From Bacteroidota bacterium (GTDB taxonomy: Bacteria; Bacteroidota; Bacteroidia; M30B66), in assembly GCA_027483445.1 (NCBI GenBank), contig JAIXUS010000033.1, positions 1 to 64,000 on the forward strand: 64,000 nucleotides of DNA. Reading direction: 5' to 3'. The translations under genes were made by a program, and so were the position numbers. Below are positions 21,783 through 33,110 of the stretch, piece after piece. Positions within the stretch are counted from its first letter, which is position 1; each line of letters opens with the position of its first letter. The notes below the pieces were generated by a model. That model worked only from the letters and a program-made list of their open reading frames with translations, was not told the DNA's origin and did not search any database.

Positions 21783-21790
21783 TAGTTTTG
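21783..21790 (+). promoter_or_regulatory. -7 element TAGTTTTG of the giant-protein cluster
   Basis: An exact TAnnTTTG match, 25 bp before the ATG at 21816. It is the only promoter-like element seen ahead of the four-gene cluster 21816-33110. No TTTG lies at 17-23 bp upstream; a TTTTC is at 21761-21765. Confidence 0.45.
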
Positions 21791-21815: not shown

Positions 21816-23519
21816 ATGAAACAAACGCTACACCTTCAACTCATCGCGGTACTGATTTCGCTTGCTCAAGCCCTACCGGCCATTTCTGATAGCAGCGGGG
21901 TTGGGAAGAAGCGTTTTATCAGTTTGTCGTCGGGAATTACCGTTTCGGCGCAGTACTACCGAAACTGGGGCGCCGACCCGCGGCAACAGCCCTTTATGTA
22001 TTCTATTTCGGGCGCTCCGGCACTTGACATTGGCGGTGTGAGTATGCCTTTTTCGGTGATTTACTCGAACCAGGCCTTCAGCTTTCAGCAGCCTTTCAAC
22101 CAGTTTGGATTAGCCCCGCGCTTCAAGTGGGGAACGGTATTTTTAGGTACCAGCAGTGTACGGTTTTCGAATTACACCCTGGCCGGGCAGCGCTTTATGG
22201 GTGCCGGAGCCGACTTGCAATTGGGTAAATTCAGGCTTGGCGGCATGTACGGACGATTACGCCGGGCCGTATTTCCTCTTGGAAACCTCAACGATCCACA
22301 AACCTTTTTGAACGAAGCCGAAGCCCCGGCATTTAAACGCAACGGATACACCTTCAAGCTGGGTTTTGGCACCAAGGAAAACTTCTTCGACCTGATTTGG
22401 TTCCGTGCCTGGGATGTAAGGCCCGACAATTACAGTGTAGCCGACTGGCCGGTGAAACCTACCGAAAATGTGGTGTTTGGCATCAACTCGCAGTTTAAAT
22501 TGGGTAAAAAAGTGACCCTGAAAAACGACTGGGCCATTTCGGCGCTCACCCGCGACATCAATGCCGATACCCTTGAAATTGAAAATGGAGCCCTTCGCGA
22601 TTTGGCCCGAAGCGTTCTGTTGCCGCGCACCACAACCTCTATTCGCATTGCCGGGGAGAGCTCGGTTCGCTACAACCATAAAATAGCGTCCCCATCGATC
22701 AGCTACAAGCGTATCGAGCATGATTTCACCTCCTTAGGAGCTTACTTTTTCCTGACGGACATCCAGCAAATCACAGGCAGCATTCAATTGAACCTCTTCA
22801 AAAAGAAGCTTTCCACCAACCTCAGTTACGGAAGGCAGCGCGACAATCTGCAAGGCCTACGTTTGCGCACCTCTACCCGAAACATTGGCGCGGCGAGTGT
22901 TCAGTTTAATCCTTCTTCCAAATGGGGTATGAGTCTGAATTACTCCAACTTCGGGATTTCACAAAGCCCGCTGCCCAAGGCGCTCACCGACACTTCGCGA
23001 ATCAATCAGGTGAACAACAGCTTAACCTTCATTCCACGACTCAACATTCAAAAGAAAAACAGCATGCACAGTTTGAATTTGGTGTTGGGTTATGCGGCTT
23101 TGACGAATCTGGGGGCTTCAATCGGAGCTTCGGCAGCTACTACAAGCTACAATGCTAACCTCAACTACAACTGGCAGTTTCAGCCCTTGTTCCTCAGCGC
23201 CGGGGTAACGCCGTCGGTCATCAACACCGAAACCATACTAGGCACCTTTAGGGCAACCGGGGCAAGTTTTAATGCCGGGAAGGGCTTCCTGAAAGGCAAG
23301 TGGATGCTCAATTATGCCTTAAGCGTTTTCGGAAACACCTTTAATGGCAGCGAGAACGGGCGAACGCTCACCCATTTGCTTTCGCTGAGCGGAAACATTC
23401 CCCGTTGGCCCTCCATCGCCTTGAACATTCAACACATCAACAATACCAGCAACAACCTGCAGGCGGCACCAAGTTTCAGGGAGTTGTATGCTAACCTATC
23501 CATTTCCTACAATTTTTAA
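21816..23519 (+). CDS. Outer-membrane beta-barrel protein of the giant-protein cluster
   Basis: This 567-aa exported protein has a signal peptide at about 1-24. From residue 35 on it is built of alternating hydrophobic/polar strands separated by short turns. It ends in LYANLSISYNF, a classic barrel C-terminus with terminal Phe. I estimate more than 16 strands. There is no plug or TonB box that I can see, so it is not an obvious TonB-dependent receptor. The giant 2195-aa gene begins 3 bp after its stop, so the two should be cotranslated and may work together as pore and passenger or anchor. The family is not recognised. Confidence 0.75.
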   Translation: MKQTLHLQLIAVLISLAQALPAISDSSGVGKKRFISLSSGITVSAQYYRNWGADPRQQPFMYSISGAPALDIGGVSMPFSVIYSNQAFSFQQPFNQFGLAPRFKWGTVFLGTSSVRFSNYTLAGQRFMGAGADLQLGKFRLGGMYGRLRRAVFPLGNLNDPQTFLNEAEAPAFKRNGYTFKLGFGTKENFFDLIWFRAWDVRPDNYSVADWPVKPTENVVFGINSQFKLGKKVTLKNDWAISALTRDINADTLEIENGALRDLARSVLLPRTTTSIRIAGESSVRYNHKIASPSISYKRIEHDFTSLGAYFFLTDIQQITGSIQLNLFKKKLSTNLSYGRQRDNLQGLRLRTSTRNIGAASVQFNPSSKWGMSLNYSNFGISQSPLPKALTDTSRINQVNNSLTFIPRLNIQKKNSMHSLNLVLGYAALTNLGASIGASAATTSYNANLNYNWQFQPLFLSAGVTPSVINTETILGTFRATGASFNAGKGFLKGKWMLNYALSVFGNTFNGSENGRTLTHLLSLSGNIPRWPSIALNIQHINNTSNNLQAAPSFRELYANLSISYNF

Positions 23520-23522
23520 GGC

Positions 23523-26500
23523 ATGAAAAGGCTTGTTCTGCTCCTTAGTCTCCTTGTTGCGATACTTTCCACCAAGGCCCAAAACTCGGTGAATGTTACC
23601 CTTTTGGTAACTCCGCCATACAGCCCGTATTTTTCCGACTACACCGAATTTGGCCAACAAAACGTGTTGCAGCTGCAAAATACCACAGCCGCCAGCTTGC
23701 AAGTGAAACTCATCGGCACCATCACCGGGCTCGACAACGGACTGTTTCTCAACACCGAACCCGACTATCAACCGGCCTTACCCATTGTGCTGGCTCCTTT
23801 TCAAACCTATTCGGTGACTTCAGCCTCGCCCTCGCGCGATTTCCTCGATGCGAACAATACCGAAACCAATGTAAGTCAGCAGCAGCAAAATGCCATCCTG
23901 GCTTCGGGTGTTCTTCCCGAGGGCACCTACCAACTGTGCGTTCGTGCTGTTGATTACAATACCAACGAACCGCTTTCGCCCGAAGGTACAGGTTGCGCTA
24001 CGTTTACCATTTCCTATCCGGTTCCGCCAATTCCCATTACTCCGATCTGCGGCAGTACGGTCGAAAATCCATTTCCATCGTTCTCCTGGACGCCTGTGTA
24101 TTCACAGGGCTCTTTCTTTCTGTACGACCTGTACTTGTTGCGCCTGGTAGAAAGTCAAATTCCCGACGATGCCATGTGGCTGGCCATTTCGGGCAATGTG
24201 GGCAACCCGATTGTGATTCGCAATCTCGTTTCGGGCATTTATCAGTACAAGCTATCCGACATTCCTCTGCAGCAAGGCGCAACCTATGCCTGGTGTGTGG
24301 TGGCCCGCGATGCTGCCCAAAACATTATTGTAGCCAATCAGGGCCGAAGCGAGGTGTGCGCCTTTGTTTACCAAACGCCGGCTCCTCCTGCAACGCCGGT
24401 TGTGGCGCAGGAAGAAACGACGCCGGTTTTGCCGGTCGAATTTAACCTCAACAACACCACAGTGAGCGGGCGCTTGCTGTATCGCTTTCACGACAAAGAG
24501 CTGTTTCCGGAACCCGGAATTCCGCCCTACGCCCCTACAAAGGCAATTGGAAGCGCCACTTTGAGTACGGCCGAAATTCTTCAGTTGCCCAATATGAATG
24601 GCGCAAGTTTAAGTCCGGTCGGCACCAATACTCCCGGCAGTTTTCAGCAATTGGGGAATTCCGGGTTTCAAAATCCGGGAGCACTATTGAGTGGCTTCAA
24701 TCAATCGGCCCTTGAATGGGCAAACGGAAGTGCCAACATGAATGTGCAAGGGGGTAAAATTTTGGTTGACCCCAGCGTGAAGTATTTGTACAACAACACC
24801 TTAAGCAACAATGGTTCAGAGCCACTGCGCAATACCAGTGTTTCTGTGTATCTCGAATATGTGGCTTTGAAGCGCACCCTGGAAAACGAAACCACTTTTT
24901 TCAAGGTGATTCCGGGCGGCGATTTGTATTTGAACCGCACCTCGAAAACGGCCAAAGGCCCGGCCATGGATCCGCAAATGGTAAAAGCGGCCATGCAACA
25001 GGGTTATTCCGGTCAAAATGCGATGGATTTAAGGCCTTTTGGCTCGGAATTGCTGGCCACGGTTTTTACCAATGAAAATGGAGATTTCAGTTTTGACTTC
25101 GACCTCACCGAAAACACTGGTTTGTTAAGTGCCGAAGCCAATTTGCTGACTTTTAAATACAATGTGCCTGATGATGAGGCTTTGGAGCAGGAATTTGTGC
25201 ATCCGCTCGACATGGTGAGCAATCCAATGCAGGAGATTACCAACCCCACTGAGCAGCTGCAAAACCCGGCAATGCAAGGACTTAATCCCGGCCAAACTCA
25301 GGGTTTATTCGGCAATGCACAATTGCAGGGCAATCAGGGTTGGGGCGGAAGCTCCGGCGCGCTCAACTCATTTCTAAACCCGGTTCAGGGCGGAAATATG
25401 CCCGGAATGAACAAGCAAATCAAAAGTGGGCCGGCCCAACCCGATTTAGCGTCGAGCCACGACAGCCCGGTTGAGTATATCCAATACAAGGCCTACTATG
25501 TGTTTAAGGTCTTGAGAATTAAAGTAAACGACCCTCGGTATGTTTGTCCCGATATTCTGGTATTTGCCCAGCCGGGCGATGTGCTGAATTTACCGCCGGT
25601 GAGCACATTTGTAAATAGCTACGATGTTGAGTTTACGGTAAAAGCCGGAGGTAAAGCCAGCGAAGCAGACGAATTGTACCTCAATCCGGGAAGTGCTTTG
25701 AGCGATTTTAATGTGCGCCTGGGCAGAACCAAAAACTTTTGGGATGGTAAGCCCGGAAATTTCCCCATTGGTGAAGGCATGGATTTGCAGCCGGAGGAAT
25801 TCTTCAACATCGCCACCACCGCGCCTTTTTACCTACCGGCCAATCCCACAAAACCCAATCAATTGCGCCTTAGCGCGATGGGTAAAACCAATGCCGGTGG
25901 GAAAGTTAAATTCAAGCGCCTGGTGAAGAATAAACAAAATGCCGCAGGCGACCTTCACTATTTTGAGGTACAGATGCCCCTTGATGGCATTTTCAATTAC
26001 GCCGGCTCCTGGGGTGGAGTGGGCACCACAGCCTCGCTGCCTGATCACATGTGCAATGCGCAGCACAGCTACAGCTTTGGCCCAGCGCAACTCTTTGCGG
26101 AGGTGAAGCTGGAACCCTTAGCTCCGGAGATTTTGTTGCGGACCATCACCAAAAGCAATATTGAAACCCAGCCCTTACCGGGTGTTTCTGTGTTCTTGCA
26201 GAATTACAATCAAAGCGGTGGGGCCTTTAATTACTCCGGCTACACCCAAAATGAAACCGACGCCAATGGATATCTCCGCATTAGCAATTTACCCATTGTG
26301 TCGGGCCTGCAAGGCGTAACCAATCCGTACCGCAGACTGCTGCTTATGAAAAACGGCTACCCTGTCCTGCATCTTCCCGGAGGGCAAGCCAACGCAGGCA
26401 ATAACGCCGCAAACTTCATTGAGCCCTTGAAAAAAGGCCAGCGACGCGATTTGGGAGAAATCCAGATGGAAGGGAAAACCGAAGTATTTGGCTATTTGCG

Positions 26501-29500
26501 CGATGAGGACAACAATCCGGTGATGGCCCTGGTAAAAATTGGTGATGGCCCCTTTTTGATGACCGACATGAGCCTTTCAAAAGAAGGCTACAACGCGCCT
26601 TTGCACCGAACTGTACCTGCCGAAACGGAGACACAGGGCCCGATGAGCGCGGCTCAAACCTTCCAGCTGCTCGACCAGGGAGCCTTGGGCAACTTAAACT
26701 TACCCAACAACGGCGCATTGGGAGGTGCCATTGGAACGAATCCGATGCCCGGAAACATGCAGGCCCAATCAGGAAATACCAACCTTGGCGGAAGCACTAT
26801 TGGCGCAACGTCGCAGAACTTTGGCGGTGTTCAATGGAGCAATCCCGCACTGGAAAACGTGCTCCAGCAGGTGTCGCGCTTTGCCATCAACGCCCCCTCA
26901 GGAGGCCAAACCAGGGTAATTGTAATTCCGATGTCGGATGCCTACTTCGCCGACACCTTTATGGTTAACATTCCCACCAGCAATAGTCCTTTGAACATCG
27001 GCACTTTCATGGTTTTTGAAAAAGCCCACCGCATCAAAGTAAAGGTGCGACGCCGTTCGACGAGCCCCAACAATTCCGTTACGGTTGCTTCTTCCAATGC
27101 CTTGGTAGAAATCGGCGATTACGCCTGCAACACCAATTCCAATGGAATAGCCATGTTTCGGTTTACAACGCCCGACTCTTATTTCAGGGTGTATGTAAAG
27201 GATGGCACCCGTGTACCCATCGAAGAATATCGGTACTTACCCATCGCGAAGCAATACACCGAAATCACCTACGAAACCGAGGCGGGCATGAAGGTGAGCG
27301 GAAAGGTAACCGACGCACAAACGGGCTTGCCCATTGCCCAGGCACGGGTGTTCTGTGAACTTGGAGCTAACATGTATGGCGCAAGTGTTTTGGAAACCTT
27401 TACCGATGCGGCAGGACTTTACATCCTTGAAGGTCTTCCACGTGAATCGGTGGCAATTCGGGTGGCTAAGCACGACGACAATATCACATACATCGGCACC
27501 TTGCGCGTGGTGCAGAGTGCAGCCCCCAATATTGTTGACTTTAACTTTAATCTGGAACGCTTCGCGGGAGGAAACCTCAGCAGAATTTATGGTTTCCCGG
27601 TGGAGATAACCCGGGTGAGAGACCTGAAAAACGGGCAATTCCAGGTGAGTGGGGCCTTTGTTAACATTCCCGAGAACCCCAATTTCAGGTTGTATGATCC
27701 GCAACAAAGACTGCGCTTCTCACAAATAAACATCGAGGCCTTGGCAACACCCAACCCTCAAGGTCAAACCGTTTGGAAACCCGTTGCCGAGCAAGTGGTT
27801 ACATCAGAGCGCGCGTTGAGGATGCGTTTGCACAATGCTTTTATGGCCGACATCAGCGGCTTACATCAGGGGCAGTTCATCACCGTTCGTCCAAAAACGC
27901 CACTGGTCGGAGGCATCTACGGCAAGGTTCAAACCGATTTGGAAAGTTTTCGTTTCGCGTTCGATTATTCGGGCGACTTCTTCCTTGGCGAGGCTGCCCA
28001 GGAGCCGGGTTTCCACCCTTTGGTTTCCAATGGCGCGATGTACCCCGAGCGGGAATTTTTCATCATGAACCTGAGCCCGATGAATCTGCCCCTTCCAATA
28101 CAATTTACAGTGCACGGGTTTAATGCCAGAGCCAATGCAGAGCTCTCGCGGCTCAAGAAAGACACCGTAAAGATTGTTACAGAACTCCTTCCGAATTTGC
28201 CACTGGCGGGAGATGTGGTAGTAGATGCGGGCACAATAAGGGTAAGTCCTACCATGATACAAATTGGCAACCCCGGCGAGCAACTCAGCTTCAACCTCGA
28301 AAAGTGGACGGTGAAGTCGCTCCAGGGTTGGTCGTACAGCATTCCACTCGGTGGAATCGTTGTTCCTAAAGCGCTGCTGCAAACCAAGGTAGCCGATATT
28401 CCCATCAACAACTTGATTTTGCGCCCCGACAACCTCATCATGGAGCAGTCGAACATCGATTTGAACAACCTCAGCGTCGGTGGTGGGGTCACCAAGCTCC
28501 GCCAATACCCGGGCAATCAGGCTATTTTTAGCTTCGATCCGGCCTGCACATTCGACATGGGGCCGCACTGGCGCTTCAGCCTCTTCCCATCAAACCCCGA
28601 CAACCCGGCTTGTTACCTGCAAGGCCTTCCCGGCTTTGCCGCAAACGATAAAATCGACATTGGCGCCTTTACCATTTACAGCAACGACGCCAGCCTGATG
28701 CAGCCCGTTTTTCAAAACAAGACATTCTCCAATGTGGCCCAATACAACATTGCCAACATTACCAACCTGAGCGATGGTATTATGCTGGCCGGACCGCTCG
28801 ATTTAGGCATTCCGGGAATGACCACGCCCAACATGATTTTGGTGTTTACCAAGCCCGCCGCGAGCATCGTTCGTGAGGTGAGAGCCCTCGATATTGCGCT
28901 GGAAACGCCCGGTAAAGTGTTCTTCAACGGCAACAATGGCACAGAGAATTACACCTTCAGCAACGGGTTCTTCGAAGCCAAAGGCAAGCTGATTTTTGAG
29001 GATGACAATCTGTTAGACGACAAAAAAGTAGAGTTGAAAGGCTTGCTCACGAAAAACAACAACCAAATCACCCTCACCATTCCGAAACTGATTGCCAACA
29101 GCAGTGCCGACAATGCCTTCCAATACATTCTTCTGAGCGGAGGAAACAGCAAACTCAAGGTGCTCAACGGCGAACAGCGGGTGATTGGCAACAGTTGGAA
29201 CACCTTGGCCTACGATGCCGACCTGATTACCAACCAGGGCTTGAGCGATGACAAAACCCTCACCTACCTGGTTTCGGGCGCCATGGAAGTTAGTCAGGCC
29301 GATGGCAACGCCCTGAAAATCGACAAAATCGATACGCCGCTGGGCGGGATGACCATCGTGTTTGACTGGCAAACAGGCATGTTCCTCGGCTCGGTGAACA
29401 TTGATTTCCCCATTACCATTTCGACCGTTACCTTGAATTCGGGCATGATGGAAATCTGCTTCAGTGGTAAGGGCTTTTACTTCGACATGATTGGCAACGT

Positions 29501-30110
29501 GAGCCTCCCCGGTCTGGATGCCTTTGCGAATGTGAACTTCGGTTTCCTCACGGGCTACTATCCGGATTTGCCGTCATCCGTGCTTGCACGCCACAAAGAC
29601 ATCATGTTTTTGTTGGATGTGCCGGTTTACCTGAAAAATGATGGAATTGCCGGTCTTTATTTCAACGCCAATATCGCGCCCCCGGCTGCCAACTGGAGTA
29701 CCAGTGTAACAATCCCAGTTTTGCCTCCAGTTACGGTTGGTGCCGGTGTTTCGGCGGGGGCTGATATGAATTTCATCATCAATTTTGGCAAACAAGATAT
29801 GGTGATGGCCATCGATGCGGCGGCCTATGCCAAAGCCTGGGCGGGTGTCGACATTCTGATGTGTCCTTTCTGTGTTGGAGCGCTTGCAAGGTTTACAGCC
29901 AATGGAACCATTAAAATATCCGAACCAGCCAATTTGACCGGTGGCGCCTGTGCATCATTAACCATGTTTGGAACCTTCTGTGGTGGCAGCTTCGATGTAA
30001 CGGCCGGTATAAATGCAAACTTCTCCACCGACGATGGAGTTGATGTTTCCTTAAAGTGGTCTCCCTGCGGCGCTCCGGCCTCAAAAAATGATATGCAATG
30101 CGAATTCTAA
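23523..30110 (+). CDS. Giant exported multidomain beta protein (2195 aa)
   Basis: The signal peptide is 1-19. Residues 20-150 and about 165-290 look like Ig/Fn3 modules, the second starting PVPPIPITPICG and containing FSWTPVY. Three Asn/Gln/Gly/Pro-rich low-complexity stretches at about 358-400, 565-637 and 1041-1115 interrupt beta domains. A carboxypeptidase-regulatory-like module lies at about 1254-1330 (VSGKVTDAQTGLPIAQARV). The last 650 residues are long runs of amphipathic strands rich in Gly and aromatics, with several Cys (MCPFC, TFCGG, SPCG). There is no T9SS sorting domain and no lipobox. The N-terminal part may relate to TANFOR-type proteins; I am not sure. Flanked by a barrel gene and an Fn3 gene, it is probably a surface or periplasmic structural protein. 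Confidence 0.8.
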   Translation: MKRLVLLLSLLVAILSTKAQNSVNVTLLVTPPYSPYFSDYTEFGQQNVLQLQNTTAASLQVKLIGTITGLDNGLFLNTEPDYQPALPIVLAPFQTYSVTSASPSRDFLDANNTETNVSQQQQNAILASGVLPEGTYQLCVRAVDYNTNEPLSPEGTGCATFTISYPVPPIPITPICGSTVENPFPSFSWTPVYSQGSFFLYDLYLLRLVESQIPDDAMWLAISGNVGNPIVIRNLVSGIYQYKLSDIPLQQGATYAWCVVARDAAQNIIVANQGRSEVCAFVYQTPAPPATPVVAQEETTPVLPVEFNLNNTTVSGRLLYRFHDKELFPEPGIPPYAPTKAIGSATLSTAEILQLPNMNGASLSPVGTNTPGSFQQLGNSGFQNPGALLSGFNQSALEWANGSANMNVQGGKILVDPSVKYLYNNTLSNNGSEPLRNTSVSVYLEYVALKRTLENETTFFKVIPGGDLYLNRTSKTAKGPAMDPQMVKAAMQQGYSGQNAMDLRPFGSELLATVFTNENGDFSFDFDLTENTGLLSAEANLLTFKYNVPDDEALEQEFVHPLDMVSNPMQEITNPTEQLQNPAMQGLNPGQTQGLFGNAQLQGNQGWGGSSGALNSFLNPVQGGNMPGMNKQIKSGPAQPDLASSHDSPVEYIQYKAYYVFKVLRIKVNDPRYVCPDILVFAQPGDVLNLPPVSTFVNSYDVEFTVKAGGKASEADELYLNPGSALSDFNVRLGRTKNFWDGKPGNFPIGEGMDLQPEEFFNIATTAPFYLPANPTKPNQLRLSAMGKTNAGGKVKFKRLVKNKQNAAGDLHYFEVQMPLDGIFNYAGSWGGVGTTASLPDHMCNAQHSYSFGPAQLFAEVKLEPLAPEILLRTITKSNIETQPLPGVSVFLQNYNQSGGAFNYSGYTQNETDANGYLRISNLPIVSGLQGVTNPYRRLLLMKNGYPVLHLPGGQANAGNNAANFIEPLKKGQRRDLGEIQMEGKTEVFGYLRDEDNNPVMALVKIGDGPFLMTDMSLSKEGYNAPLHRTVPAETETQGPMSAAQTFQLLDQGALGNLNLPNNGALGGAIGTNPMPGNMQAQSGNTNLGGSTIGATSQNFGGVQWSNPALENVLQQVSRFAINAPSGGQTRVIVIPMSDAYFADTFMVNIPTSNSPLNIGTFMVFEKAHRIKVKVRRRSTSPNNSVTVASSNALVEIGDYACNTNSNGIAMFRFTTPDSYFRVYVKDGTRVPIEEYRYLPIAKQYTEITYETEAGMKVSGKVTDAQTGLPIAQARVFCELGANMYGASVLETFTDAAGLYILEGLPRESVAIRVAKHDDNITYIGTLRVVQSAAPNIVDFNFNLERFAGGNLSRIYGFPVEITRVRDLKNGQFQVSGAFVNIPENPNFRLYDPQQRLRFSQINIEALATPNPQGQTVWKPVAEQVVTSERALRMRLHNAFMADISGLHQGQFITVRPKTPLVGGIYGKVQTDLESFRFAFDYSGDFFLGEAAQEPGFHPLVSNGAMYPEREFFIMNLSPMNLPLPIQFTVHGFNARANAELSRLKKDTVKIVTELLPNLPLAGDVVVDAGTIRVSPTMIQIGNPGEQLSFNLEKWTVKSLQGWSYSIPLGGIVVPKALLQTKVADIPINNLILRPDNLIMEQSNIDLNNLSVGGGVTKLRQYPGNQAIFSFDPACTFDMGPHWRFSLFPSNPDNPACYLQGLPGFAANDKIDIGAFTIYSNDASLMQPVFQNKTFSNVAQYNIANITNLSDGIMLAGPLDLGIPGMTTPNMILVFTKPAASIVREVRALDIALETPGKVFFNGNNGTENYTFSNGFFEAKGKLIFEDDNLLDDKKVELKGLLTKNNNQITLTIPKLIANSSADNAFQYILLSGGNSKLKVLNGEQRVIGNSWNTLAYDADLITNQGLSDDKTLTYLVSGAMEVSQADGNALKIDKIDTPLGGMTIVFDWQTGMFLGSVNIDFPITISTVTLNSGMMEICFSGKGFYFDMIGNVSLPGLDAFANVNFGFLTGYYPDLPSSVLARHKDIMFLLDVPVYLKNDGIAGLYFNANIAPPAANWSTSVTIPVLPPVTVGAGVSAGADMNFIINFGKQDMVMAIDAAAYAKAWAGVDILMCPFCVGALARFTANGTIKISEPANLTGGACASLTMFGTFCGGSFDVTAGINANFSTDDGVDVSLKWSPCGAPASKNDMQCEF

Positions 30111-32023
30111 AAACCATTTCCCTCCTTTTTTTCACACTGATTGCCCTGCCTGCAATTCAGGCTCAAACGGTGCGTTGCGGGGTTTCAGCACTGGGTGTTG
30201 TGCTCCATTATGATGGCCCAATTCACAAATCGGCCGTTGAGGTGTTTAAAAACGGCAAACCGCTGGGAAGCCTGCGTCTGAACAAAAGCGAAAAGGCCAT
30301 TGAAAACGCCCTCCAATCGTGGGAAGCGAAATTGCCGGGCTATCCGGAGGCCAACGATACACTGCGTAAATACTTGTTTCAGTCGATCGACAAAGCCACA
30401 CAAACCGAGGCCATTTACGGCAAATACTACCTCAGCGTTAAGTTGGCCATTGGTTTGGCTTTGGCCGATGAGGCCGGCAAGCCGGATGACCAATATACAG
30501 CTACGCGGGATGGCCAAACGGTTCCGGTAAACTGGGAGCGCAAGTCAGCCGTTTTTGCAGAGCCGGCCCTTGCTCCGGGGAAATACAAAAGCTGGTATGG
30601 CGATATTGAATCTTCCTGGGGCATAAACCCAAAAAATGAATTGCTCTTCACCCGACTCTTTCGAAAAGGGCACGATAGCACCGATTTCAGGCCGGTAAAG
30701 AATATCCTCTACACCATGACGAAAAACGGCGATTCAACGATGGTCATCGCCCGCGACACTCTGGTTCCAAAGCTGTCGTACTATCAATACAGTATGGTGG
30801 GTTTCGATTTCTACGGCAATGCCAGTAAGCCGTCGCCGGTAATGATGGCCGACAATCTCGACAATTCTACATTGCCCGTAGCCCTTCACTTTTCGGCCAA
30901 AGAAAACGAAGCCAAAAACCAGATATTCATCCGCTGGAAAATCAAACATGCAGAGCGGGTAAAATCGCTGGTGTTGCAGCGGAGCAACTACTCTAACAAG
31001 GAGTTTAGCACCATCAGTCAGCTGGGGCCTAACGATACCCTTTTTGTAGATGAGGTGTCGAACCCCATGGAGGCCGTGTATTACAAGCTGCTCATTTACG
31101 ACCTCAAAGGCTTGTTAGACAAAACACCGATGGTGCCGATGGTGAGCCACAGCAAGCCTGATGTAATGCCGCCATCATGGGTAGATGTGCAATGGGAAAA
31201 TGGAGCACCCAAACTGAGCTGGATCATTAGCGATCGCTCGGCCCGTGGGTTTAAGGTATACCGCACCGAAACCATCGGCGGTAACTTACAGGAAGTTTCG
31301 GGCTTTGTAGATGCCGACACCAGCTTCCGTTACACCTGGCGCGATACGAGCAAATACCTTGTGCCTGGAAGAAGCTACCACTATACGGTAATCGGACAGG
31401 GAAAGGGCTACACCGAAAGCGTGCCCGGGCCGTTTGCAACCCTTCAAATTCCAGACAACCAACCAACCGAAACGCCATCAGGCTTGGCCATACGACAGCT
31501 AAACGAAAACACCGTTTTTCTGGCCTGGAATACCCGGGGCGAAATGATCGGCAAGCCTCAAGGCTTCCATGTGTACCGATCGACCCGAAAAGAAGGGCCG
31601 TTCAGCAGACTTACCAAGGGGCCAATTGCCGGCGAAAACGCCTATACCGACACGCTCGATACCTTAGCCGACACCTTGTATTACGCCGTTTCGGCAATGA
31701 GCAAAACCGGCGTCGAAGGCCCCAAAAGCATGCCCATTGCCCTGAAACGAACCACCCGAAAAGGCATTCCGTTTATTCTGGCCCGTGCAACCGAAGCCGG
31801 CACCGAACTGAGTTGGGCTGTTGTACCGGATGTTGTTGAGGTTGAAATAGAAAGTTTAAACCCCGATGGACAAACCCTAAACTTAGGCAGACTCAAGGCC
31901 GAAAGCGGTAAACACCTTGTTCGTAAACAAGCGCAAGAAACAGCGCTTAGCTTCCGCTTAATTTCTATTTTTAAAGACGGAAGTCGCTCACAACCCAGCG
32001 CATGGCTGAGTCTTACCGAATAA
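30098..32023 (+). CDS. Exported fibronectin type III repeat protein
   Basis: This 641-aa protein has a signal peptide at 1-22 ending in IQAQ. Residues 23-250 have no domain I recognise. Four Fn3-like modules follow at about 258-350, 356-455, 456-550 and 555-641, recognisable by strands such as LSWIISDRSARGFKVYRTE and VFLAWNTRG...GFHVYRS. There is no T9SS sorting domain or lipobox, as in the giant protein before it, whose gene it overlaps by 13 bp. Translational coupling and shared architecture suggest the two proteins act together outside the inner membrane. Confidence 0.85.
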   Translation: MRILKTISLLFFTLIALPAIQAQTVRCGVSALGVVLHYDGPIHKSAVEVFKNGKPLGSLRLNKSEKAIENALQSWEAKLPGYPEANDTLRKYLFQSIDKATQTEAIYGKYYLSVKLAIGLALADEAGKPDDQYTATRDGQTVPVNWERKSAVFAEPALAPGKYKSWYGDIESSWGINPKNELLFTRLFRKGHDSTDFRPVKNILYTMTKNGDSTMVIARDTLVPKLSYYQYSMVGFDFYGNASKPSPVMMADNLDNSTLPVALHFSAKENEAKNQIFIRWKIKHAERVKSLVLQRSNYSNKEFSTISQLGPNDTLFVDEVSNPMEAVYYKLLIYDLKGLLDKTPMVPMVSHSKPDVMPPSWVDVQWENGAPKLSWIISDRSARGFKVYRTETIGGNLQEVSGFVDADTSFRYTWRDTSKYLVPGRSYHYTVIGQGKGYTESVPGPFATLQIPDNQPTETPSGLAIRQLNENTVFLAWNTRGEMIGKPQGFHVYRSTRKEGPFSRLTKGPIAGENAYTDTLDTLADTLYYAVSAMSKTGVEGPKSMPIALKRTTRKGIPFILARATEAGTELSWAVVPDVVEVEIESLNPDGQTLNLGRLKAESGKHLVRKQAQETALSFRLISIFKDGSRSQPSAWLSLTE

Positions 32024-32051
32024 AGTAAAACCAACATCAATCTCTCGCACC

Positions 32052-33110
32052 ATGAAAATTCGATTTACGCTTTTCCTCAGCTTTTGCAGCGTTCTCTTGG
32101 TTACGGCGCAGCCCGTGCTTCAATCAGAGAACATGGCCGGCCCCGGAACTCAGTACACCATGCGGGGAACCATTTTAGGCAATTCGCTTTTCTCTAATCT
32201 AACCGGCGAAAACCAGCAATGGGTCTTCGATGATGAAAGCAACGAATTAGGCTATCGCACCGAAATTTTCGACCCATTAGATTTTGCGCCCGGAGTTGCG
32301 GTGCCCTGCAGCCTGATTATTTCAAACATTTATGAGAGTCCTTTCGGAAACGACACCTCACTCACCTATGTAAATGTCGACCCCGATGGTTATTACTTGC
32401 TGGGCTACGGAACGATAAGCGAACTGCTCGTTACCGAGTTTACCCCTCCACGCCTGATTTACCCATTTCCGTTAAGCTATGGCGACCAGTATAACTCCAG
32501 CAACCGATTTGTTTACCAAGATGTTTGGGGCTCAGCCGGTACCGATTCGATTCGTTCAATTGTGAACGAGAACACCACCGTTTCAGTAAGTGCTTCGGGA
32601 TCTTTGAACATCAACGGGAACACCTTCACTGTGCTTCTGCTGAATTTGGTAACCGAAAGCATCGACTCCTCTTTCTTCTACCAAAATGGAGAATGGGATT
32701 TTACCGACAGCTTTAGCCAGACCTATTTCAGCCGGCAGTGGCTCGATGTTTCCAGCGGAATTGTGGTGCTTGAAGAAAGCGAAGAGGAAGGCTTTAAAGG
32801 GAGCGTAGATTACCGCTACACCTATTTTTTCGAGGGCAATATTGTACCAACCAAGGCCGTACCCGCAGAAAGTTCAACAAGGCTTCAGGTGTACCCCAAT
32901 CCAAGCTCGGGCTTAACGCAACTGCATGCCAATGAGGCGATTTCGCACATTCGGGTGTTTGCTGCCGATGGCAGGATGGCCATGCAACACACCCCAAGCC
33001 ATTCGACAGATGTGGCTATTGATCTTTCGCCCCTTCCGGCCGGGCTTTACCTTATCGACATTCAACTTGCCGATGGTTCGCGCACAATGCAAAAAGTGCT
33101 GAAGCAATAG
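32052..33110 (+). CDS. T9SS type A sorting-domain protein of the giant-protein cluster
   Basis: This 352-aa secreted protein has a signal peptide of about 1-19 (LLVTAQ). Its central beta-rich region (20-265) has Asn/Ser/Thr-rich loops and no recognised catalytic motif. A T9SS C-terminal sorting domain starts near 277 with VYPNPSSG, then ADGRMAM and GLYLIDIQ. It follows the Fn3 gene by 28 bp and is likely the last gene of the transcript. It is the only member of the cluster with an explicit type IX signal. The function is unknown. Confidence 0.85.
   Translation: MKIRFTLFLSFCSVLLVTAQPVLQSENMAGPGTQYTMRGTILGNSLFSNLTGENQQWVFDDESNELGYRTEIFDPLDFAPGVAVPCSLIISNIYESPFGNDTSLTYVNVDPDGYYLLGYGTISELLVTEFTPPRLIYPFPLSYGDQYNSSNRFVYQDVWGSAGTDSIRSIVNENTTVSVSASGSLNINGNTFTVLLLNLVTESIDSSFFYQNGEWDFTDSFSQTYFSRQWLDVSSGIVVLEESEEEGFKGSVDYRYTYFFEGNIVPTKAVPAESSTRLQVYPNPSSGLTQLHANEAISHIRVFAADGRMAMQHTPSHSTDVAIDLSPLPAGLYLIDIQLADGSRTMQKVLKQ

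Follow-up and report, generated by a model that had tools for sequence, protein, structure and literature searches.

A two-module locus in Bacteroidota links an outer-membrane barrel of an undescribed family to exchangeable giant secreted proteins with a TANFOR N-terminus

How might a secreted protein of more than two thousand residues reach the cell surface, or be held there, when it carries neither a sorting domain of the type IX secretion system (T9SS) nor a lipobox? The question is raised by a 64,000-nucleotide stretch of DNA, here called the window (positions 1 to 64,000 of contig JAIXUS010000033.1, assembly GCA_027483445.1), from a Bacteroidota bacterium of the class Bacteroidia, lineage M30B66. 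Four co-oriented open reading frames (ORFs) on its forward strand, at 21816-23519, 23523-30110, 30098-32023 and 32052-33110, encode proteins of 567, 2195, 641 and 352 amino acids (aa), spaced by a 3-bp gap, a 13-bp overlap and a 28-bp gap; an ORF check of the window reproduced the coordinates, lengths and spacing given in a preliminary description. That description, made from the sequence alone, read the genes as an outer-membrane barrel, a giant, an Fn3 protein and a T9SS cargo protein, and proposed that the barrel anchors or exports the giant. The comparisons described below suggest a dedicated surface display or export platform, a two-module surface system in which the barrel would recognize the TANFOR domain at the N-terminus of the giant and export or anchor interchangeable giants lacking a T9SS signal. 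We assign this reading a probability of about 0.6.

The first 300 residues of the giant (23523-24422, + strand) contain a signal peptide, a region at residues 22-152 that resembles TANFOR, and an Ig/Fn3-like domain. The match of residues 22-152 to the TANFOR model TIGR02542 is distant in the window protein (E 5.8e-4; 19.8 bits against a cut-off of 67; 133 of 145 positions), and 14 of 22 aligned members of the giant family match the same model, the best at 8e-15. Judged from these profile matches, the N-terminus is a divergent, homologous TANFOR domain. PDB sequence profiles matched the giant only at its carboxypeptidase-like Ig domain, apart from weak Fn3/Ig-type matches at the N-terminus. TANFOR proteins have been described as polymorphic toxins of Bacteroidetes and hypothesized to be T9SS substrates; SprB, Fn3, PKD and C-terminal sorting domains (CTD) are enriched near their genes, the available text of that report mentions no barrel among the enriched neighbors, and it left the exit route open, with the T9SS as the guess (Jana, Salomon, Bosis 2020, PMC7073777). 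The earlier statement that no characterized system of this composition is known has to be amended for the giant, whose N-terminus belongs with a proposed toxin class.

The operon consists, as judged from evolutionary distances, of two modules that are joined inside the giant near residue 300-370. Pairwise distances were compared across 45 loci whose giants have the same body type as the window (type I). Distances of the barrel and the TANFOR N-terminus correlated at r 0.94. A second block comprised the middle of the giant, its C-terminal region and the Fn3 protein (middle with C-terminus, 0.95; C-terminus with Fn3, 0.95; middle with Fn3, 0.91), and correlations between the two blocks were 0.55-0.66. 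The TANFOR N-terminus correlated with the middle of its own chain at only 0.58, indicating that its history is closer to that of the barrel than to that of the polypeptide of which it is a part. Because shared ancestry alone would lift all of these correlations together, the giant body provides a control within the locus; alignment noise was rejected as the source of the pattern, since the members of the second block agree so closely with one another and columns matched for conservation gave the same two-block picture. The Fn3 protein co-varies with the giant C-terminal region rather than with the barrel (0.66) and is therefore part of the module that contains the giant body. The proposal that the barrel anchors or exports the giant is still the best inference, with the qualification that co-evolution is confined to the N-terminal ~300 residues of the giant. 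Since the giant body and the Fn3 protein lie in an exchangeable cassette and the barrel lies outside it, the locus does not behave as one co-evolving four-part assembly. The two-module structure and the co-evolution of barrel and TANFOR N-terminus are new results.

Comparison of giants among genomes indicated that cassettes have been exchanged behind a constant platform. The C-terminal regions of 103 complete giants group mainly into three families, with 64, 22 and 9 members, and body types switch about 18 times on the barrel tree; the idea that all barrel-linked giants have fixed bodies was rejected once these swaps were found. In Runella defluvii (L119/L227) and R. limosa (L124/L228) the upstream genes are the same and the barrels are 97% identical, and the giants are 92% identical to residue 372, after which no alignment exists. 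The exchanged piece measures 5.5 kb in one species and 8.2 kb in the other, and DNA identity of 90-92% resumes at the start of a second Fn3 gene and continues through the downstream genes. A joint near residue 295-370 was also seen in Larkinella, Fibrella, Dyadobacter and several Spirosoma pairs, while control pairs with the same body aligned from end to end. Multi-kilobase cassettes for putative surface proteins are thus exchanged at defined joints, one of which lies inside a reading frame. Loci of body type II (L102, L105, L124/L228, L139, L152) have an extra gene of ~350 aa between the giant and the Fn3 gene.

An apparent exchange is also seen within the genus of the window. The relative used for this comparison, genome G003, is represented by two loci, L044 and L009, which are identical where their ends overlap. 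Residues 1-300 of the two giants are 91% identical overall (92-98% for residues 26-300), residues 326-1500 are 36-82% identical, and residues 1559 to 2158 are mostly 84-98% identical. Synonymous divergence (dS) was about 0.85-1.4 in the barrel, the giant N-terminus, the C-terminus and the Fn3 gene, and ranged from 2 to saturated in giant residues 301-1500. This pattern points to replacement by a divergent allele rather than fast change alone, and positive selection as the sole cause of the variable middle is disfavored, because synonymous sites are more diverged there too. On these alignments, residues 301-1550 (24423-28172, + strand) look to have been replaced. This region contains the three N/G/Q/S-rich low-complexity insertions reported earlier, near residues 341-400, 561-640 and 1041-1110, and a carboxypeptidase-regulatory-like domain, likewise anticipated (CarboxypepD_reg, residues 1258-1316, 27294-27470, + strand; E 3e-8). 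The remaining residues 1551-2195 (28173-30110, + strand) form the type I C-terminal region, common to most barrel-linked giants. The strand-rich character ascribed to it is visible as long β-strands in the predicted model of the last 1076 residues, which has good local confidence (pLDDT 84, pTM 0.61) and no solved-structure match beyond pilin/CnaB-like Ig domains.

A constant N-terminus followed by exchangeable bodies is the broad pattern of polymorphic effectors, and these sequence comparisons indicate that it is present here, with a trafficking role for the N-terminus as the corresponding inference. Like other TANFOR proteins, the giant could be a polymorphic toxin, its toxin part lying in the C-terminal region and the Fn3 protein acting as an immunity or protection factor. 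The TANFOR N-terminus, the documented TANFOR toxins (in the available text of PMC7073777) and the joint exchange of the giant body with the next gene favor such a role, which we nevertheless consider quite improbable. The barrel-linked bodies form three main large families instead of many small varied tips, and the type I C-terminus is common to very distant relatives (L197). Searches of 22 giants with Pfam and NCBIfam models found no toxin domain, and a secreted Fn3 protein of 640 aa is unlike known immunity proteins. The combination that marks TANFOR polymorphic toxins, a toxin domain with an immunity gene, was not found in these families, whose C-termini are conserved. As far as the available part of the toxin report allows comparison (PMC7073777), both groups have a homologous N-terminal domain, a Sec signal, giant size, nearby Fn3 and T9SS-cargo genes, and varied bodies behind a common N-terminus. 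They differ in that the window cluster contains no toxin or small immunity gene that could be found, and in the dedicated barrel and its co-evolution with the TANFOR N-terminus, neither of which that part mentions for the toxins.

The order barrel, giant, Fn3 gene is ancient, as its distribution shows. A TANFOR giant lies directly downstream of the barrel in 80 of 80 named loci, which include Pedobacter, Spirosoma, Dyadobacter, Larkinella, Runella, Flavobacterium and a Kapaibacterium; because these loci were chosen by similarity to the window barrel, the fraction overstates linkage across the family; without such selection, 47 of 76 barrels had a TANFOR gene ≤500 bp downstream. The gap between barrel and giant has a median of 5 bp (≤100 bp in 80 of 81), and an Fn3 gene follows the giant in most loci with a long enough contig, at a median gap of 12 bp. 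With cut-offs of E<1e-60 for the barrel and E<1e-30 for the TANFOR N-terminus, 397 genomes of the class (window included) comprised 65 with the barrel, 63 with TANFOR, 59 with both and 328 with neither (Fisher p 3e-58), a co-occurrence that includes genomes in which the two are unlinked. In a sample of the phylum, 59 of 296 genomes had the barrel, and among 20 loci fetched from outside the class, 12 contained the full triad, with giants of up to about 4,050 aa, and 2 had TANFOR just upstream. The adjacency and order of these three genes across Bacteroidota are thus strongly supported, and homologs of the barrel and the giant are not generally unlinked. The barrel is thereby a specific, phylum-wide candidate partner, co-occurring and co-evolving with exactly the TANFOR domain.

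Where linkage is broken, both partners have other company. TANFOR genes unlinked from the barrel encode shorter proteins that resemble the toxins, mostly of 750-1810 aa, and unlinked barrels often adjoin secreted proteins or precede an unrelated 978-aa protein and an Fn3 gene. The barrel (or, in L178, the TANFOR gene) adjoins secreted proteins of ~780-1190 aa in L163, L167-L170, L172, L173 and L178; those tested combine a T9SS type A CTD with SprB repeats or PKD-like domains. A secreted protein of ~975 aa without TANFOR similarity follows the barrel in three loci (L165:7921-10857, L166:8703-11639, L174:117-3044), succeeded by Fn3 in L165 and L166, and may represent a third kind of cargo for this barrel. 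Some genomes (G008, with L045, L065 and L081; G649; G639) have two to five barrel copies, some of them with different giants.

The barrel itself (21816-23519, + strand), the first gene of the constant platform, appears to represent an undescribed outer-membrane family. Structure prediction with AlphaFold2, as had been proposed, modeled it confidently as a large barrel with about 24-26 strands (pLDDT 84, pTM 0.75). No match to a Pfam, NCBIfam or PDB family was found, including PDB sequence profiles, and the family is absent from the libraries searched. The window protein lacks a TonB/plug, usher, SprA or PorP/SprF match even at E≤1, in keeping with the original reading of it as a barrel without TonB features, and 27 barrels of the family lack PorP_SprF, TonB-dependent receptor/plug and usher matches at E≤0.01. 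Membership in known families was rejected on these grounds: it is not by family a TonB-dependent transporter or SusC (no plug or receptor-barrel match, none in PDB sequences), nor an SprF/PorP shuttle by family (no PorP_SprF match), nor a FimD-like usher by family, there being no Pfam match and a fold similarity of just 0.28-0.46 in template-modeling (TM) score. A nutrient- or lipid-handling pair, with the barrel as an uptake channel and the giant as a periplasmic or surface binding protein, would explain why a barrel adjoins a large secreted protein, and the model of the giant C-terminus aligns weakly with LptD chains. These LptD alignments have TM of about 0.1 and were discarded as meaningless; together with the missing TonB features, and with body exchange behind a constant N-terminus, which is more in line with variation of a displayed protein or effector than with transport, this leaves an uptake function very improbable.

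Export of the giant by the T9SS is a weightier alternative, in which the barrel would be a cargo-specific shuttle or anchor for the TANFOR N-terminus, in the role of SprF/PorP and from an unrelated family. SprA, the T9SS translocon, was present in 65 of 65 barrel genomes tested. The window has a T9SS cargo gene next to the cluster, in Cytophagales a large Fn3-CTD protein takes that place, and the unlinked barrels adjoin SprB-repeat/CTD proteins. T9SS substrates are enriched near TANFOR genes according to the available text of PMC7073777, and type B cargo requires a cognate linked barrel (PMC12618676). SprA and the neighboring cargo genes together mean that the T9SS may do the exporting. However, sampling of the class as a whole found SprA in 191 of 197 genomes (97%), so that its co-occurrence with the barrel is nearly uninformative and cannot decide the role of the T9SS, and the presence of the T9SS was discarded as a discriminator. 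For the same reason the published statement that >95% of TANFOR genomes have a T9SS is of little specificity, and the co-occurrence argument for export of TANFOR proteins by this route is weakened. The earlier finding that the giant and the Fn3 protein lack a T9SS sorting domain (TIGR04183/TIGR04131) was upheld for the window proteins and for the 22 members aligned per family, and their lack of a lipobox extends to the families, in which a lipobox-like motif occurs in 1 of 103 giants and 3 of 92 Fn3 proteins. Without a known CTD on either protein and without a PorP/SprF match for the barrel, T9SS export of the giant appears rather unlikely.

The preferred reading, a barrel that recognizes the TANFOR N-terminus, would work as follows. 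The platform would comprise the barrel and the N-terminal ~300 residues of the giant, and the cassette the remaining giant and the Fn3 protein. After Sec export, the TANFOR N-terminus would act as an address tag for the cognate outer-membrane barrel to read, and this barrel would pass the giant body outside, or hold it there, without need of a T9SS C-terminal signal. The Fn3 protein may be the cognate partner of the body, whether as an assembly partner, a stalk or a protector. Exchange would preserve the docking interface and vary the exposed part, as in polymorphic effectors. Several observations weigh against this scheme. Besides the SprA and T9SS cargo genes discussed above, barrel and TANFOR genes are unlinked in about a dozen genomes, about ten of the genomes with both partners carry them on different contigs, 6 of the 20 loci from outside the class have no TANFOR neighbor, the distances are confounded by shared ancestry, for which the giant body is an imperfect internal control, and the predicted barrel resembles only generic large barrels in Foldseek searches, e.g., MtrB and FimD (TM up to 0.46).

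In two-partner secretion and contact-dependent inhibition, a dedicated outer-membrane partner serves a giant protein with a constant N-terminal address region and an exchangeable remainder. The present locus shares this arrangement of outer-membrane partner, constant N-terminus and exchangeable body, and differs in that family scans found no POTRA, Omp85 or haemagglutination-domain match, in the family of its barrel and in its occurrence in Bacteroidota. As with SprF/PorP and type B T9SS cargo, the gene of a presumably cargo-specific barrel stands beside that of a giant, putative surface protein and the pairs appear cognate (PMC9143113, PMC12618676). SprF/PorP recognition occurs at the C-terminal CTD (PMC9143113, PMC12618676), whereas the co-evolving part here is the N-terminus, and the barrel gene precedes the giant instead of following the cargo gene. 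The chaperone-usher proteins FimD/PapC, which are among the best fold matches, likewise pair a large export barrel with Ig-like secreted proteins; unlike them, the locus offers no usher Pfam match, and its cluster encodes neither pilins nor a pilus chaperone.

A distant version of the pair accompanies giants of another kind. In 5 of 7 sampled loci, barrel-like proteins of 690-906 aa are encoded directly before TANFOR-like proteins of 363-388 aa, and in one further locus the TANFOR-like gene lies three genes after the barrel-like gene. Hidden Markov model E values were 1e-13 to 1e-31 for the barrel and 1e-23 to 1e-29 for TANFOR. Downstream are small lipoprotein-like genes, a conserved protein of ~2,200 aa and a giant with RHS repeats, and an OmpH/Skp-type chaperone is encoded in one tested locus (L215:6800-7318). 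Its position beside RHS giants links the pair independently to giant secreted proteins, and the distant version may be an undescribed delivery system. A broader proposal would have the barrel read the TANFOR address on a T9SS-independent route of display or export, with cassettes of giant and Fn3 protein exchanged between species and the same route used for TANFOR toxins and, with a Skp-like chaperone, for RHS giants; this we regard as tentative, somewhat short of even odds. In loci L213-L219 and L220-L226, the ~2,200-aa protein starts ...ALTSGPSQPEV and is followed by a gene of ~240 aa and a giant RHS-repeat/DUF6443 protein.

The remaining features of the window concern expression and the genes that follow the giant. 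A promoter-like element, TAGTTTTG (21783-21790, + strand), lies 25 bp before the barrel ATG and matches TAnnTTTG, the Bacteroidota -7 type consensus. As a single promoter for the cluster it is weak: no matching -33 element was seen, and no sigma-70-like site was found upstream of the barrel gene. Anti-phage defense models gave no match. Upstream of the cluster, a receiver-domain-like protein of 190-265 aa is encoded by one of the two nearest genes in 14 of 75 loci (L119, L124, L135, L142, L143, L149, L150 and L158 among them), often with a kinase-like gene of ~635 aa, which suggests two-component control.

The third gene (30098-32023, + strand), the cassette member without a T9SS CTD, was called an Fn3 protein at the outset; its own fn3 match is weak (E 4e-4, below the cut-off), and the designation is carried by clearer Fn3-type matches in relatives. 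The fourth gene (32052-33110, + strand) encodes a type A T9SS cargo, whose sorting domain, predicted previously, was verified by a TIGR04183 match (32889-33107, + strand; E 4e-10). Elsewhere in its genome it has only CTD-type matches, and homologs adjoin the cluster only in the close relatives L045 and L046. It was therefore rejected as a core member, and the four-gene cluster of the preliminary description reduces to a conserved triad of barrel, giant and Fn3 genes. In Cytophagales (L227-L236), another, larger Fn3 protein, ending in a T9SS-type tail, is encoded behind the cassette, as is in most cases a lipoprotein of ~146 aa (..CQPK..PITDLI..VWKANTVKE..), both of which are kept even when the cassette is exchanged.
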